Source: Sphingobacteriaceae bacterium (GTDB lineage: Bacteria; Bacteroidota; Bacteroidia; B-17B0; Aurantibacillaceae). Taken from it: 64,000 nucleotides of DNA. Shown here one piece after another: positions 28,370 to 64,000 of this stretch. A model generated the notes under the pieces. It did no database searches. It was not told where the DNA came from and worked only from the letters and a program-made list of their open reading frames with translations. Location: positions 4,588,001 through 4,652,000 of the forward strand of contig NVQB01000001.1 of assembly GCA_002319075.1 (NCBI GenBank), given 5' to 3'. Within the stretch, counting starts at the first letter, position 1. Each line of letters starts with the position of its first letter. Both the position numbers and the translations under genes were made by a program.

Positions 28370-30811
28370 ATGAACCACAAAAAAATTGCAAAAACTTTTT
28401 TTGCAACCGCATTGGCTTACTCCATGAGTTCGCATGCACAATCTGTTCTTTCAGGGCAAGTAAAATCAACAAGCGGAGAGCCCGTTCCCTTTGCCGTTGT
28501 TGGAATTAAAAACACGCAGTTGGCTTCTACGGCTAATTCAGATGGCAGTTTTAGTTTTAAAAATCTTAAGAACGATGTCTACATCCTTACAACAAGAAGC
28601 GTGGGTTTTCTTGAAAAAACGGATACGATCACACTTACAGGCGACTTTTCTTTTAGTCCCGTGCTTGTAGAATCGAACAAGCAACTCGATGTGGTAGTAG
28701 TGAATGCCACGCGGGTGGATAAGAACAACGGAATGGCCTACAGCAATGTGGATGCAGAGACTTTAAAAAAGCAAAACCTTGGGCAAGACGCTCCTTACAT
28801 GCTAAATCAGCTGCCTGGAGTTGTTGTAAACTCAGATGCAGGTAATGGTGTTGGATATACGGGACTTAGAATTCGTGGTTCGGATGCAACGCGTATTAAT
28901 GTTACCATAAATGGTGTTCCAGTAAATGATGCAGAGTCGCAGGGAACTTTTTTTGTAAATATGCCTGATTTTGTTTCCAGTGTCAACAATATCCAGGTGC
29001 AGCGTGGAGTAGGGGCCTCAAGCAATGGGGCAGGTGCTTTTGGAGCTAGTATTAATTTTCAGACAAACGACTTAAAAGATAAACCTTATGCAAACGTGAT
29101 CTCTACAGCGGGCTCTTTCGGAACGTTTAGAAATACGCTTGCTGCTGGAACTGGTTTACTAAACAATAAGTTTACACTCGATGCCAGAGCTTCAAATATT
29201 TCCAGCGACGGATACATCGATCGGGCCAAATCAAATTTACAGTCTTATTATATTGCTGCGGGTTATTACGGAAAAAAGTCCGTGCTTAAATTCATAAATT
29301 TTTTGGGACAGGAAAAAACCTACCAGGCCTGGAATTATGTTTTGGAAGATTCAATTAAAAACGGAAACCGCACTTATAATTCCTGTGGCGAATATTACGA
29401 TGCAAATGGTAAAGTGAGATACTATAAGAACGAAACCGATAACTACAAGCAAAATAATTTCCAGTTACATTTTATTCATCAGGTAAATTCAAGAATAAAT
29501 TTCAATATCACCGGCCATTATACCAAAGGAAAAGGATATTACGAGCAATACAAAGAAGATCGTAATCTCGCTGATTACAACATTGCAAACGTTATTACCC
29601 CTAAGCAGGACACGATTTCAAAAACGGATCTCATCCGTCGCTTATGGCTAAATAACGATTTTGCAGGTGGAATTTTTAATTTAAATTATACAGCAAATTC
29701 AAGATTAATATTTACCCTTGGCGGCGGTTATAATACGTATTTTGGCATGCACTATGGAAGGGTAATGTGGGCACAGTATGCAAGTGATTCAGAAATTGAT
29801 CACGAATACTACAAAAACACAGCGAACAAAAATGACGGAAATATTTATCTCAAAACAAATTATAAACCCCTTTCTAATTTAAATGTCTTTGTCGATTTAC
29901 AAATTAGAAAAGTAGACTACCGGTTTTTAGGATTTAACGATACTATAGCGGGAGCTTCGGAATTGAAAATGCAAAGTCAGGCCTACACGTTTTTTAACCC
30001 GAAAATGGGTTTGAGTTATGACCTGAATAAAAATGCAAACCTCTACGCATCTGTTGCAGTTGGTAACAAAGAACCCAATAGAAATGATTTTGTGGAAAGT
30101 ACCCCCTCAAGCCGTCCAAAACACGAGCAACTAGTAGATCTGGAAGCAGGATTAAAATATAATTTTAAAAAATTATATTTTGCGACCAATTTTTATAACA
30201 TGCAATATAAAAATCAACTCGTGTTAAACGGGCAGATTAACGACGTGGGGGCATATACAAGAATAAATGTAGACAAAAGTTTTAGAAGAGGTGCTGAGAT
30301 CGAAGTGAACTACACATTTAACCGATTCGTAAATCTTGGTGGAAACATTGCTCTCTCGCAAAATAAAATTTCGAAGTTTGTAGAATTTATTGATAGCACC
30401 GACGCCGACTACACAGTTTACTCGCAATTTAAAAAAGAATATACTAATACGGATATCTCTTTTTCACCAAACGTGGTATCATCTGTTATGTTAGGCCTCA
30501 GACCTTTAAAAGGTTTGGAAATATCTCTGATCAATAAATATGTGGGCCAACAATTTTTGGATAACACAACTAATTCGAAGAGAAGTATCAGTGCCTACAA
30601 TGTTGTAGACATTCGTGTAAACTACACGATCAAAACAAAAGTTATTCCTGAAATTAGTTTCATGCTTTCGGTATACAATGTGCTGAATAAAAACTATGAA
30701 ACAAATGGCTATACCTATAGTGCTTACACCGATGCTACGCTCTATACAAGCAATTATCTGGCTCCGGCGGCCCCTGTAAATTTTTTGGGTGGTGTAAGTC
30801 TGAAATTCTAA
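28370..30811 (+). CDS. TonB-dependent outer-membrane receptor, TPP-regulated (probable thiamine-compound importer)
   Basis: 813 residues from ATG 28370; an upstream in-frame TTG at 28292 falls inside a leader hairpin and is not a start. After a signal peptide (KTFFATALAYSMSSHAQ) comes a carboxypeptidase-regulatory-like domain (SGEPVPFAVVGIKNTQ, residues about 30-100), then the plug (QLPGVVVNSDAGNGVGYTGL, RGSDATRINVTINGVPVND, VQRGVGASSNGAGAFG), then a 22-strand-type barrel ending in an aromatic residue (GGVSLKF). It takes a substrate across the outer membrane using TonB energy. The TPP riboswitch in front of it points to thiamine or a precursor; Bacteroidota receptors with THI elements are known. 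Confidence 0.92.
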   Translation: MNHKKIAKTFFATALAYSMSSHAQSVLSGQVKSTSGEPVPFAVVGIKNTQLASTANSDGSFSFKNLKNDVYILTTRSVGFLEKTDTITLTGDFSFSPVLVESNKQLDVVVVNATRVDKNNGMAYSNVDAETLKKQNLGQDAPYMLNQLPGVVVNSDAGNGVGYTGLRIRGSDATRINVTINGVPVNDAESQGTFFVNMPDFVSSVNNIQVQRGVGASSNGAGAFGASINFQTNDLKDKPYANVISTAGSFGTFRNTLAAGTGLLNNKFTLDARASNISSDGYIDRAKSNLQSYYIAAGYYGKKSVLKFINFLGQEKTYQAWNYVLEDSIKNGNRTYNSCGEYYDANGKVRYYKNETDNYKQNNFQLHFIHQVNSRINFNITGHYTKGKGYYEQYKEDRNLADYNIANVITPKQDTISKTDLIRRLWLNNDFAGGIFNLNYTANSRLIFTLGGGYNTYFGMHYGRVMWAQYASDSEIDHEYYKNTANKNDGNIYLKTNYKPLSNLNVFVDLQIRKVDYRFLGFNDTIAGASELKMQSQAYTFFNPKMGLSYDLNKNANLYASVAVGNKEPNRNDFVESTPSSRPKHEQLVDLEAGLKYNFKKLYFATNFYNMQYKNQLVLNGQINDVGAYTRINVDKSFRRGAEIEVNYTFNRFVNLGGNIALSQNKISKFVEFIDSTDADYTVYSQFKKEYTNTDISFSPNVVSSVMLGLRPLKGLEISLINKYVGQQFLDNTTNSKRSISAYNVVDIRVNYTIKTKVIPEISFMLSVYNVLNKNYETNGYTYSAYTDATLYTSNYLAPAAPVNFLGGVSLKF

Positions 30812-30824
30812 AAAAACATTCCTT

Positions 30825-30855
30825 AAAAATCCCGGCATCACCGGGATTTTTTTTT
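30825..30855 (+). terminator. Intrinsic terminator after TonB-dependent receptor
   Basis: AATCCCGG-CATCA-CCGGGATT followed by a run of nine T's, starting about 14 bases after the stop codon. A textbook intrinsic terminator. Confidence 0.9.
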
Positions 30856-30871
30856 CACCCTGCAAACATAA

Positions 30872-31072
30872 TTGGGAATTTTATACCTATTCAGAAACTA
30901 TTCATTACCCGGAATTTGCAATAAATCGTATTTTGCAGGATTAAACTATGAACCTCTGAACGCGAAGTTTAAAACATACTTGAAAAAGATAGGACTACTA
31001 GGATTTGTATTTTTCCTTTTGAAAGGCATTGCCTGGCTTTTTATTTTTTATTTTGTAAAAAGTAAACTTTGA
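30872..31072 (+). CDS. Small single-pass membrane protein, start uncertain
   Basis: The frame gives 66 residues from a TTG at 30872, but only the last 40 look like protein: AKFKTYLKKIGLLGFVFFLL followed by KGIAWLFIFYFVKSKL. This basic-hydrophobic pattern resembles tiny one-helix proteins found beside other genes in Bacteroidota. The real start is probably downstream of 30872 (a CTG at 30956 opens the homologous part; the only ATG nearby, 30948, is out of frame). A clear terminator follows at 31107. Confidence 0.4.
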   Translation: MGILYLFRNYSLPGICNKSYFAGLNYEPLNAKFKTYLKKIGLLGFVFFLLKGIAWLFIFYFVKSKL

Positions 31073-31106
31073 ATTTACCTTATAAATGGTTAGCAGATAA
31101 ATTATC

Positions 31107-31146
31107 AAAAAAAAAGTCCCGGAAAATAATTTCCAGGACTTTTTTA
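31107..31146. terminator. Bidirectional intrinsic terminator
   Basis: AAAAAGTCC-C-GGAAA, a short ATAA loop, then TTTCC-A-GGACTTTTTT. A-run before and T-run after make it work for the plus-strand small ORF and for the minus-strand START-like gene ending at 31162. Confidence 0.85.
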
Positions 31147-31161
31147 TAGATTGCACTGCGA

Positions 31162-32256
31162 TTAGTAAATCGAGCCGATCACCTGCATTAACTTTTCAAT
31201 CTGGCTGTGCCATAAAAGTTTAGAAGATTCTCTGTCGCTAACTGAATCCGCAAAATCAGTAATAATTAAAGAAATATCATTTGTAAGATCATCACGTTGA
31301 ATTTTAAACTCAAAATAACTTCCATCGGTCTTATCTACCCATTGGAAACGAACCAATTGCAAATCTATTGTTTTAAGTAAACGTGCTTGCTGCAATTGAT
31401 CTTCCCAGATAAAAGTATAAATGCCATTACGAATATTTAAATCATCGCAAAACCATTCAGAAAGTCCACTTGGTGTCGACAAGAATTCATATAACATCTC
31501 CGCAGAGGAATGTACAACAAATTCTAATTCAAATTTTCCATTTGGTTCTTTCTCTGGTTTTATTGCATAAGAATCTGTTTTTTTAATCGGATTCGTTATA
31601 GAGTGAGATATAGAAGCAATTTTCGATGCTGAAATTTCGTGCTTTGCCTTTACAGGTATGGTATTTGTTATGGCTAAAACTTCAGTTGACTTTTTCTCAG
31701 CCAATTGTTTTTTAGTAGCGATAGCTGTTGCAACTTCTGCTTTTCTTAATTTTTCATCGGCCGCAGCACCTTCCTTCTTTGCAACTGGCGCACTAATTGA
31801 CGGGGTTTTCCCTGATGTTGCAGCGCTTGTTCCGTTAACTTTCGCGGCTGTTTTCTTAACCGGTAATGTAGGTTCTTTACTACCTGACTTTGAAGGTTTC
31901 GTAACAGCAATCACTCCTTTGGGGGATGCTTTTTTGCTCTCAACTTTCTTAACCACCGCTTTTTTTGATCCTTTAGAGCTATGGTCAGCTTTTTTTGCAA
32001 TTTCTTTAGGCTTATTAGTTTTAACAGCAGCTTTGGGTTTTGATGCTTTTACCGGAGTACTTTTTGTAGGTTTAGCAGCCTTAACACCTGTTTTTTTAAC
32101 AACTGGTTTCGCTTTTTTTGCATTTATAGGCTTAGAAGTTTTAGCAGCATTTTTAGTCGGAGCAGGTTTGGTCGAACCTTTTTTCAAAGCCTTTTTATCC
32201 GCGGTCTTTTTTCCAGCGTTTTTTGACTTTTCTTTATCCTTTTTCTTTTTCGACAT
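31162..32256 (-). CDS. START-like domain protein with long histone-H1-like basic N-terminal tail
   Basis: 364 residues from ATG 32256; 15 more codons from a TTG at 32301 add non-conserved residues and are not used. Residues 1-240 have no predicted fold: a low-complexity chain of Lys, Ala, Pro, Ser and Thr with repeated 'KPxKxxxKK' and 'AKKT/AKKA' motifs, like histone H1 or AlgP-type tails. Residues about 241-364 form a START-like (SRPBCC, START_2) domain: FELEFVVHSSAEMLYEFLST, PSGLSEWFCDDLNI, FIWEDQLQQARLL, RFQWVDKTDGSYFEFKI, and KLLWHSQIEKLM. Stand-alone START_2 proteins in Bacteroidota are about 130 residues, so the tail is an addition. It may bind DNA or RNA. Role unknown. Confidence 0.8.
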   Translation of the reverse strand: MSKKKKDKEKSKNAGKKTADKKALKKGSTKPAPTKNAAKTSKPINAKKAKPVVKKTGVKAAKPTKSTPVKASKPKAAVKTNKPKEIAKKADHSSKGSKKAVVKKVESKKASPKGVIAVTKPSKSGSKEPTLPVKKTAAKVNGTSAATSGKTPSISAPVAKKEGAAADEKLRKAEVATAIATKKQLAEKKSTEVLAITNTIPVKAKHEISASKIASISHSITNPIKKTDSYAIKPEKEPNGKFELEFVVHSSAEMLYEFLSTPSGLSEWFCDDLNIRNGIYTFIWEDQLQQARLLKTIDLQLVRFQWVDKTDGSYFEFKIQRDDLTNDISLIITDFADSVSDRESSKLLWHSQIEKLMQVIGSIY

Positions 32257-32323
32257 ACTGTAAAATTTTGTGAAATATATAGAAAAATTCCTACAAAGCA
32301 AATTAAAAGCTTAAAATAAATGT

Positions 32324-32355
32324 TTTGGCGATTATGCACGAATGTTTTATATTTG
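32324..32355 (+). promoter_or_regulatory. tRNA promoter TTTG-N20-TATATTTG
   Basis: TTTG at 32324-32327, 20 bases, then TATATTTG at 32348-32355: an exact Bacteroidota -33/-7 pair. The tRNA begins 12 bases after the -7 element, so the leader is very short. Confidence 0.75.
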
Positions 32356-32367
32356 CAGCCCGAAAAC

Positions 32368-32441
32368 GGCGGGATAGCTCAGATGGTTAGAGCGCAGGAT
32401 TCATAACCCTGAGGTCTCGAGTTCAACTCTCGATTCCGCTA
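32368..32441 (+). tRNA. tRNA with anticodon CAT, probably elongator tRNA-Met
   Basis: A full cloverleaf: acceptor GGCGGGA with TTCCGCT (two G-U pairs), D arm GCTC-AGATGGTTA-GAGC, anticodon arm CAGGA-TTCATAA-CCCTG with anticodon CAT, variable loop AGGTC, T arm TCGAG-TTCAACT-CTCGA, discriminator A. CCA is not fully encoded. The anticodon stem lacks the three G-C pairs of initiator tRNA. A lysidine-modified tRNA-Ile2 also carries CAT in DNA and is not fully excluded. The A31-C39 position is a mismatch. Confidence 0.92.
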
Positions 32442-32445
32442 CAAT

Positions 32446-32480
32446 AAACCCTTGAAGATTAGATCTTTAAGGGTTTTTTT
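32446..32480 (+). terminator. Intrinsic terminator after the tRNA
   Basis: AAACCCTT pairs with AAGGGTTT across an inner GAAGAT/ATCTTT stem, followed by a T-run (TTTTTTTT). It starts 5 bases after the tRNA. Confidence 0.85.
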
Positions 32481-32603
32481 TATGTGATTTATGCCTGAAA
32501 TTGGCAGCTACACTAAATGTCTTTTGAAAGCGATAAAAGCAAAAAAACTCATTAAATACCTTTAAATGAGTTAGTTATAAGTTAATTTCTTCGAAAAGGA
32601 ATT

Positions 32604-33239
32604 TTAGATCAGCTCGGCTATTTTAACTTTTGATTCCGCACTTACAAGAATGTTGTTGCGGTTAATCCAGTCATTAATGCCTTGTGCGAAATTTTCACGG
32701 TACCGAATATGCTCTAATTTTATAGCGACAGTTTTACGGTTCTTTTTTACAAAATAAAAAATATCGTGTCTGAATTCAATGATCATAATTTCCGAAGCAA
32801 AAACTTTGGTGAATTTGCTTTCAACAATTAATAGATAGTTAGCGTAAATATTAACGAAACATAGACCCTTTTTATATTTCAAATAAAGAATACTTGCTTC
32901 AGTAGCTGCAACAATAATACAAATAGGATAGAACAGTTTCACACTGCTGCGTGAAAAATAAAGTAACAAAGCAAAAGCAACAAAAATGCTGATTTTTAAT
33001 GAACGAAACATAATGAACTTACTGGTGAAATACGGATAACGCTGCACTGGCAAAGATGCCTTGTAGCTGGCGTTGAGGTACTCGTAACAACTAAGAAATA
33101 TGTATGCTAAACCCACCAGGCTTTGCACGCCAAGTAGTTCTTTCCAATTTAACCAGGTATAAAAAAAATTAAAGGCCGAAAGAAAAACGATCGCCACTAA
33201 AATAAGATTCTTTCCAATGGAAGCCAGTGCAGAGTTCAT
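32604..33239 (-). CDS. Membrane protein of unknown function with C-terminal YcxB-like part
   Basis: 211 residues from ATG 33239; an earlier in-frame start at 33269 adds MYIYIANTKI, which sits in a promoter-like region. Four hydrophobic segments lie between residues about 8 and 120, the last ending before YLKYKKGLCFVNIYAN. The remaining 90 residues are soluble and beta-rich with a final helix (FYFVKKNRKTVAIKLEHI, FAQGINDWINRNN), similar in layout to YcxB/PH-like membrane proteins. No catalytic motif. Function not recognised. Confidence 0.6.
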   Translation of the reverse strand: MNSALASIGKNLILVAIVFLSAFNFFYTWLNWKELLGVQSLVGLAYIFLSCYEYLNASYKASLPVQRYPYFTSKFIMFRSLKISIFVAFALLLYFSRSSVKLFYPICIIVAATEASILYLKYKKGLCFVNIYANYLLIVESKFTKVFASEIMIIEFRHDIFYFVKKNRKTVAIKLEHIRYRENFAQGINDWINRNNILVSAESKVKIAELI

Positions 33240-62434: not shown

Positions 62435-64000
62435 ATGTTTTTTAATTTTAAGCGGGTAGTATTTTTCACTTCTTTAGTATTTAGTTGTTTTTCTTTTTTT
62501 GCACAAGACATTTTGGTCGAAGTTCAGGGTACCGTCTCTGATGAAACTTCCGATTTGAGTGGAGTGAACCTCCAGGTTAACCAGGGAGGCAAGGTTCTTA
62601 ATAATGCTTTAACCGATCCAACGGGAAAGTATAATTTCAATGTTCCCCTCGGCGGCGAATTTTTGATTGTAGTTTCCAAAGCCGGTTATGTATCGAAAAA
62701 ATTCACCATTAGTACTAACGGTGTAACACCTGAGCGTGCAGCTTTAAAATTTAAGCCCATTGGTGCAGAGATCTCTTTATTTAAAAAAGTGGATGGAGTA
62801 GATTATTCTGTCTTAAATCAACCTATTATTAAATACGTTTATAATCCCACAAAAGAAAACTTCGAATACGATAAAGGATATTTAAACCAGATGCTTGAAG
62901 CCCTTGAAACTGTTAAAGAAGCAGAGAGAGCTGTCAAAAATAAGGAAAAAGCATTAGCGGGAAATTACACGGACCTTTTAAAAGACGGTGATAAGCTTTT
63001 TGCTGCAAAAGATTGGCCGGGAGCAACAAGTAAATATCAGGAAGCCTTAAAATTAAAGCCAGCAGAAACCTATCCTAAGACACAGATAGCAGCCATTAAC
63101 AAGGCAATGGCAGATGCAGAGGCAAAAGCAAAGGCAGATGCGGAAGCAAAAGCAAAAGCAGCGGCAGATGCAGCAGCTAAGAAGGCGGCCGAGGAAGCAG
63201 CTGCGAAGGCAAAAGCAGACGCAGAAGCTAAAGCAAAGGCAGAAGCAGACCGATTAGCAAAAGAAAAGGCAGCTGCAGACGCTGCAGCTAAGGCCAAGGC
63301 AGAAGCAGACGCATTAGCAAAAAAACAAGCAGAAGAAGCAGCCGCTAAAAAAGCCGCAGACGAGGCAGCAGCAAAGGCCAAAGCAGAAAAAGAATTAGCT
63401 GACAAATTAGCAAAAGAAAAAGCAGAAGCAGAAGCAAAAGCCAAAGCTGACGCAGAAGCAAAAGCTAAAGCCGAGGCAGCTGCACTTGCAAAAAAACAAG
63501 CAGATGAGGCAGCAGCAAAAGCTAAGGCTGAAGCAGAGGCCAAGGCAAAAGCGGAGGCTGAAGCAGCCGCTAAAAAAGCGGCCGAAGAGGCAGCGGCTAA
63601 AGCAAAAGCGGAAGCAGAAGCATTAGCGAAAAAACAAGCAGAGGAAGCAGCAGCTAAAAAGGCAGCGGATGAAGCAGCTGCAAAGGCAAAGGCAGATGCT
63701 GAAGCACTAGCCAGGAAACAAGCAGAAGAAGCTGCGGCTAAAAAAGCAGCGGATGAAGCGGCGGCAAAAGCAAAAGCAGAAAAAGAATTAGCAGATAAAT
63801 TAGCAAAAGAAAAGGCGGAAGCAGAAGCTAAAGCAAAAGCTGAAGCAGATGCCAAAGCAAAAGCGGATGCTGAAGCATTAGCGAAAAAACAAGCAGAAGA
63901 GGCAGCGGCAAAAGCTAAGGCTGATGCCCTGGCAAAAGCAAGGGCTGAAGCTGAGGCAGCAGCAAAAAAGGCAGCCGATGAAGCGGCAGCAAAAGCCAAA
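62435..64000 (+). CDS. Exported TPR protein with very long Ala/Lys/Glu coiled coil, 3' end outside window
   Basis: 522 residues from ATG 62435; the frame is open to the window end. A signal peptide (FFTSLVFSCFSFFAQ) is followed by a carboxypeptidase-regulatory-like domain (EVQGTVSDETSDLSGVNLQV, about 22-105). Residues about 170-220 form a TPR-like helix pair (LLKDGDKLFAAKDWPGATSK, YQEALKLKPAETYPK). From about 220 on it is a TolA-like chain of Ala, Lys and Glu with repeats such as AKKQAEEAAAKKAADEAAA; one 28-residue unit (four heptads) recurs, and a longer block returns 132 codons later (near 63380 and 63776). The antisense frame over this region is a composition artefact. Confidence 0.88.
   Translation, partial: MFFNFKRVVFFTSLVFSCFSFFAQDILVEVQGTVSDETSDLSGVNLQVNQGGKVLNNALTDPTGKYNFNVPLGGEFLIVVSKAGYVSKKFTISTNGVTPERAALKFKPIGAEISLFKKVDGVDYSVLNQPIIKYVYNPTKENFEYDKGYLNQMLEALETVKEAERAVKNKEKALAGNYTDLLKDGDKLFAAKDWPGATSKYQEALKLKPAETYPKTQIAAINKAMADAEAKAKADAEAKAKAAADAAAKKAAEEAAAKAKADAEAKAKAEADRLAKEKAAADAAAKAKAEADALAKKQAEEAAAKKAADEAAAKAKAEKELADKLAKEKAEAEAKAKADAEAKAKAEAAALAKKQADEAAAKAKAEAEAKAKAEAEAAAKKAAEEAAAKAKAEAEALAKKQAEEAAAKKAADEAAAKAKADAEALARKQAEEAAAKKAADEAAAKAKAEKELADKLAKEKAEAEAKAKAEADAKAKADAEALAKKQAEEAAAKAKADALAKARAEAEAAAKKAADEAAAKAK

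Follow-up and report, generated by a model that had tools for sequence, protein, structure and literature searches.

START_2 proteins are widely kept in Bacteroidia, with no assigned role. The window (the whole stretch of 64,000 nucleotides of DNA that was analysed) encodes a START_2 protein with a long basic extension at its N-terminus. What does such an extension add to a START-type domain? The tailed form is a hint to the place of the protein in the cell. The original prediction for this locus was a START-like domain fused to a histone H1-like basic chain of 240 residues. The open reading frame, the domain and the basic chain were all confirmed (Table 1). The length of the chain was only partly right. 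Residues 1–186 are low-complexity and basic, whereas residues 187–240 form a non-repetitive conserved linker. This third part of the protein had been overlooked, as had the tail being a lineage-wide option. The architecture of tail, linker and START_2 is real and conserved, and the gene is present in one copy in the 5.65-Mb genome (two contigs).

Table 1. Parts of the tailed START_2 gene and adjoining features, with positions in the window
Feature	Position	Strand	Basis and remarks
Whole CDS	31162..32256	minus	ORF: ATG 32256-32254, stop 31164-31162; 364 aa plus stop
Basic tail, predicted disordered, residues 1-186, N-terminal	31699..32256	minus	Composition and AlphaFold2; boundary approximate
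Conserved linker, residues 187-240	31537..31698	minus	Alignment within genus; non-repetitive
START_2 domain (SRPBCC / Aha1-like helix-grip fold), residues 241-361	31174..31536	minus	PF19569 match
Hairpin flanked by A and T runs, just past the stop codon	31110..31149	minus	Reading by eye
tRNA-Met(CAT), divergent, upstream of the START_2 gene; conserved neighbour outside the protein	32368..32442	plus	tRNA call

The hairpin is a possible two-way terminator. It was absent from the hits of a pattern scan for promoters and terminators, in which hits never rose above those of the scan's own shuffles.

The START_2 profile (PF19569) matched the window protein at 5e-38 (130.3 bits, cut-off 23.6), with residues 241–361 aligned to positions 6–125 of the 126 in the profile. 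Residues 241–364 have a net charge of -10 and a pI of 4.4. Two AlphaFold2 models were built, one of the full-length protein, based on 18 aligned full-length proteins, and one of the linker and domain alone. Block mean pLDDT for the domain was 71–89 in the former and 82–90 in the latter. The predicted model shows a helix-grip (SRPBCC) fold, and its nearest solved folds in VIA-align are Aha1/AHSA1-type proteins, with a Z of 16.0 for 2m89 (2.4 Å over 123 residues) and 15.1 for 3q63. However, the AHSA1 profile (PF08327) did not match the window protein at E up to 1. It matched 3 of 10 other START_2 proteins, each time below the cut-off. StAR-type START proteins were absent among the best 50 fold matches listed, which is not evidence against kinship.

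Among solved structures, a single sequence relative was found at E up to 1, namely 2lio (2.2e-18), an uncharacterised stand-alone START_2 protein of Bacteroidia. Stand-alone proteins share with the window protein the domain family, a mostly single match per genome and the tRNA-Met neighbourhood. They differ in having neither tail nor linker and in being mostly 124–131 aa long. The predicted length of about 130 residues for such proteins agrees with the 124–142 aa found in 48 tail-less rows (N-terminal extension plus matched domain, cut rows included).

The first 180 residues of the window protein contain 52 Lys, 1 Arg, 31 Ala, 18 Ser, 15 Thr, 14 Pro, 14 Val, 4 Asp and 7 Glu, with a net charge of +42 and a pI of 10.6. 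The tail has the features of a histone H1-like basic tail: it is long, rich in Lys, Ala and Pro, poor in acidic and aromatic residues, and predicted to be disordered. AlphaFold2 modelled residues 1–190 without secondary structure, at block mean pLDDT of 35–49. Charge was surveyed in the window and in 20 stretches of 20 kb from its own genome (464 kb), using greedy non-overlapping ORFs of at least 60 aa (n = 411). Among these 411 ORFs, the most positive 100-aa stretch is in the START_2 tail (+0.31 charge per residue; ORF mean 0.055, sd 0.045). Because the tail is the extreme of this sample, we do not regard it as a product of chance. The second most positive stretch (+0.22) lies in an 885-aa DNA topoisomerase I (TopA, PF01131; L161:15296–17950), whose last ~55 residues form a C-terminal tail of the K/A/P type.

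TRF found no tandem array within 30500–33000. The Hc1 profile (PF07432) had no match in the window protein (P0001) at E up to 1, where START_2 alone matched. In 18 full-length homologues (alignment A3), START_2 was the sole Pfam match at E up to 0.01, again with no PF07432. Pfam-A scans of START_2 proteins gave no globular H1 domain and no phasin domain. BLAST of the tail against its own genome returned, besides the tail itself, just a single broken overlapping frame (E 0.44); the search was weak and missed the TopA tail. Four HU-type genes have open frames of 94–123 aa, none with a long tail. A long K/A/E-rich repeat begins elsewhere in the window, at 63104–64000 on the plus strand (TRF period 393 and smaller, strongly A-skewed), and runs off its end; it is charge-balanced by eye, in contrast to the START_2 tail.

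Homologues were compared by family-level group (f numbers). In f1, the linker carries the motif VLAIxNTIP..SKIASIS.SITNP..DSY..K.EKEP.G, and in the window protein AlphaFold2 modelled a short helix at residues 210–220 with low confidence. A profile of the f1 linker matched 12 of 21 genomes, one of them through a contig-end piece. At E <0.01 it found only START_2 genes of the genus, and three weak hits followed at E 0.04–0.07. Each group has its own linker. That of f21 contains the acidic segment DDDEPEIxHDELIEQLI, and f28 and f29 have similar acidic segments. By eye, KxEPxG or a near form directly precedes START_2 in f1, f6, f7, f19, f21 and f37. Such likenesses between groups suggest a shared origin for the tails, at least in part.

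Of 396 genomes from the class, 342 have START_2, and it matched in 51 of 60 relatives. Nearly all genomes listed had one match each. A draw from the phylum gave START_2 in 74 of 296 genomes, all from the window's class except for one weak match (G638, 7.4e-6). The architecture is conserved in homologues: in one set of 19 loci, 17 have a basic tail, L020 lacks it and L017 runs into a contig end. The 122 loci collected gave 102 different rows, or 101 after one cut row was dropped, with 53 tailed and 48 not; further loci raised the set to 118 different rows, 69 of them tailed. L017 and L045, both cut by contig ends, were dropped; L017 is outside the START_2 tree and the cut L076 outside the genus table. 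A row was called tailed when its extension had at least 45 aa, at least 24% K+R and no Cys, which means that the K+R floor and the absence of Cys reported below are partly by definition. The sole extension of at least 45 aa to fail was that of L043 (52 aa, two Cys), which was judged upstream read-through and counted as untailed. Rows were picked from the best-scoring or long open frames in part of the family groups, and the counts are not frequencies.

Among the sampled loci, the tailed form was found in 15 family-level groups: f1, f4, f6, f7, f9, f16, f19, f21, f23 (one genus), f28, f29 (two genera), f37, f43, f70 and f75. The bare form was found in 17: f3, f5, f11, f13, f14, f20, f23, f24, f29, f31, f34, f38, f40, f52, f53, f57 and f60. 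Tail-less orthologues are thus common even within one family group, and the core role of START_2 seems to be independent of the tail. The two groups with both forms, f23 and f29, offer a ready natural comparison of what the tail contributes.

Tails of the 69 tailed rows are 51–379 aa long, with 24–44% K+R, 1–13% D+E, 0–6 aromatic residues and no Cys. The top D+E values are in f21, whose linker has the acidic segment. Within f16 alone, tail lengths are 51, 59, 59, 134, 137 and 167 aa. Across 20 tailed genera, net charge stays at +0.18 to +0.37 per residue and D+E at 1–8%, while sequence and length (51–364 aa) drift. The f9 tail (L081) is of an Arg/Ala/Pro type (K 14%, R 14%, A 22%, P 20%), in which half of the lysine has been swapped for arginine and the basic total is unchanged.

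Constraint differs among the three parts. For 27 sequences drawn from the genus and its neighbours, mean pairwise identity was 0.25 for the tail, 0.60 for the linker and 0.81 for START_2; the values for 15 f21 sequences were 0.30, 0.60 and 0.81. The expectation that tail length would vary and START_2 would not was borne out, since the matched domain has 122 aa in every sequence of both sets and the tails without linker have 131–194 aa. The dN/dS was 0.12–0.49 for the tail (11 close pairs), 0–0.12 for the linker (8 non-saturated pairs) and 0–0.03 for START_2 (7 non-saturated pairs); among the 11 pairs, three have sequences in common, and dS is above 1 in some cases. These ratios indicate a translated tail whose general kind, rather than its exact sequence, is under constraint. 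In the pair L033 and L036, synonymous divergence was 0.19 in the tail vs 0.92 in the linker and 0.83 in START_2; other pairs were not so extreme.

A tree of topoisomerase I from 31 genomes, made by a quick method and with 9 of its 28 inner branches open, requires by parsimony no fewer than 5 changes of tail state. One starred clade of 11 (f1, f4, f6, f7, f16, f21, f28, f37, f43) is tailed throughout. The START_2 tree (122 columns, 101 rows) requires a minimum of 6 changes and is poorly resolved, with 52 of 98 inner branches open. As no root was inferred, gain and loss of the tail are indistinguishable on these trees. Two MAGs, L005 (Sphingobacterium thalpophilum) and L007 (Chitinophaga pinensis), group with the window's family on the START_2 tree, in a clade of 31 rows; their titles may be wrong.

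We propose that the disordered cationic tail acts as a non-sequence-specific polyanion tether for the Aha1-like START_2 domain, most likely to nucleoid DNA, and we give this reading a probability of about 0.5. The tail would hold START_2, and whatever START_2 binds, on or near the chromosome, and the conserved linker would probably serve as a partner-binding or spacing segment. Nucleic-acid binding by the tail, which the original prediction had also put forward, is likely, judging from its composition, the likeness to the TopA tail of the same genome and published H1-like tails. We also infer that the protein sits at the nucleoid, that the linker has the role given above and that START_2 has a ligand or client. 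DNA is favoured because the only other such tail in our sample is on topoisomerase I and because similar published tails act on DNA. The tether reading is further supported by the exceptional charge of the tail, by a charge and basic total that are kept while sequence and length drift, by the dN/dS values of the tail set against those of START_2, and by the absence of modelled structure in the tail. Counted against it are the tail-less orthologues in 17 family groups (two of which also have tailed members) and the acidity of START_2. We considered a charge-balance role, in which the tail neutralises the acidic domain, and rejected it. START_2 is acidic in both forms, at a mean pI of 4.49 over 53 tailed rows and 4.37 over 47 untailed ones, so its acidity is independent of the tail.

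The architecture is assembled from known kinds of parts, and the tail would work in the manner of those of PhaF (on PHA granules), AlgP and actinobacterial TopA. In PhaF, a positively charged tail of AAKP repeats binds DNA non-specifically, as described in an excerpt of PMC5658603. PhaF resembles the window protein in joining a cargo-binding part to a positive H1-like tail, but it has a phasin domain and a C-terminal tail where the window protein has an Aha1-like domain and an N-terminal one. AlgP is presented in an excerpt of PMC9239181 as a DNA-binding protein with a KPAA tail, needed for even spacing of polyphosphate granules. Its disordered H1-like K/P/A tail is of comparable length (a 154-aa repeat region); the differences are its regular KPAA repeats, its helical N-terminal domain and the C-terminal position of the tail. 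Actinobacterial TopA has lysine repeats that act on DNA, according to an excerpt of PMC7398561. In it, as in the TopA of the window's own genome (L161), a similar tail is attached to a DNA enzyme, although TopA is a catalytic DNA protein and the tail is at its C-terminus. Hc1 (PF07432) and chlamydial Hc2 are Lys-rich and H1-like as the START_2 tail is; they are stand-alone proteins, and the START_2 tails scanned had no PF07432 match. No publication on a tailed START_2 protein was among the literature matches listed. A tailed START_2 protein would extend bacterial H1-like tails beyond phasins, AlgP, TopA, HU and Hc2. Only tentatively do we go further and suggest that this Bacteroidia Aha1-like domain, with its at least 5 changes of tail state, represents an undescribed class of chromatin or condensate adaptor: in the tailed lineages, where an H1-like tail goes together with a docking linker particular to the lineage, a START_2 client or small molecule might be brought to the nucleoid.

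It is unlikely that the tail binds RNA instead (nascent transcripts, rRNA or ribosomes), with START_2 as a translation- or RNA-linked factor. Lysine-rich disordered domains do occur in eukaryotic snoRNPs (excerpt of PMC11528048), and among the distinct rows whose flank is long enough, 50 of 60 tailed and 23 of 47 bare ones have a tRNA-Met(CAT) gene upstream of START_2, within 600 bp of its start codon. These 73 rows span the class, and the tRNA gene is divergent from START_2 in 68 of them. However, since untailed orthologues have the same tRNA neighbourhood, it is uninformative about the tail, and the Pfam scans gave no RNA-binding domain. Recombinase- or integrase-like genes were read near this tRNA-Met gene in L095, L102 and L118.

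The remaining neighbours raise another reading, in which the tail is an electrostatic anchor to the membrane or lipid A and the Aha1-like domain handles lipid or LPS at the inner membrane. START-type folds often hold lipids. A cluster matching LptF_LptG is near START_2 in 21 of 40 loci (L081–L120), and genes for PAP2, PMT_2, glycosyltransferase family 2 and RibBA recur (each neighbour cluster was named from one scanned member). LptF/LptG, PAP2 and the glycosyltransferases point to the envelope over the chromosome, and they count against a DNA tether as well. But the 21 loci comprise 9 tailed and 12 bare ones, and a neighbourhood shared by both belongs to START_2, not to the tail. The LptF/LptG neighbourhood was also not met in the window's genus within the flanks examined. 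With 0–6 aromatic residues in the tails and no helix modelled in residues 1–190, we consider membrane anchoring improbable.

In most long loci of the window's genus, the neighbours are dxr, a TonB-type receptor, a family-less membrane protein, a BatA-like protein and pyrC, all named by reading apart from the membrane protein, which was scanned. At 32604–33239 on the minus strand, the window encodes a 211-aa membrane-like protein for which Pfam and NCBIfam gave no match at E up to 1. Counting the window, 8 loci have this protein (c16) next to START_2. In several loci a nameless gene of ~200 aa (c6) separates START_2 from LptF/G; the member scanned had no Pfam match.

A tail that binds polyphosphate or drives a condensate, with START_2 in or on granules as with AlgP, appears still less probable. 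The AlgP requirement in granule spacing cited above and a tail of the same kind in charge and composition agree with it, but composition cannot tell polyphosphate from nucleic acid. Finally, that the tail is slack, functionless low-complexity sequence grown through replication slippage is very unlikely: its large variation in length, its absence in many lineages, the short internal repeats seen by eye in the L084 and L086 tails and a constraint much weaker than that of linker or START_2 are set against the tail dN/dS in the 11 pairs, the Arg-for-Lys swap in f9 and the starred clade with tails in 11 of 11 members.

Further observations on TopA and Hc1 bear on the nucleoid tether. TopA tails of the K/A/P kind differ greatly among 31 Bacteroidia genomes. 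Strongly basic ones were found in 12 of 17 START-tailed vs 3 of 14 untailed genomes (Fisher p 0.011, at a cut-off chosen by the analyst). On the starred branches, only 3 independent pairs were available, with a sign test median p of 1. The co-occurrence of the two tails was therefore set aside as a raw association unsupported by independent pairs; shared ancestry alone may account for it.

Hc1 was found in 123 of 396 genomes of the class and not in the window's own genome. It is missing in f1 and in many untailed groups; other untailed groups have it, and so do the tailed f6, f16 and f75 and one genome of the tailed f37 (judged by hand). Hc1 was therefore rejected as a source of the tail or a stand-in for it. 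A suggestive case for the tether is f60, where START_2 is bare yet near tailed groups on both the START_2 and TopA trees. A stand-alone Hc1 gene is located 0.6–1.4 kb upstream of the untailed START_2, on the same strand, in 3 of 7 f60 genomes (G160, G251, G285). Among the others, Hc1 is ~370 kb away in G301 and on other contigs in G318 and G350, and G210 had no match. In L100 and L110 the tRNA-Met gene stands between Hc1 and START_2, so the two do not form an operon. As the linkage was seen in one family, it is perhaps a single event.
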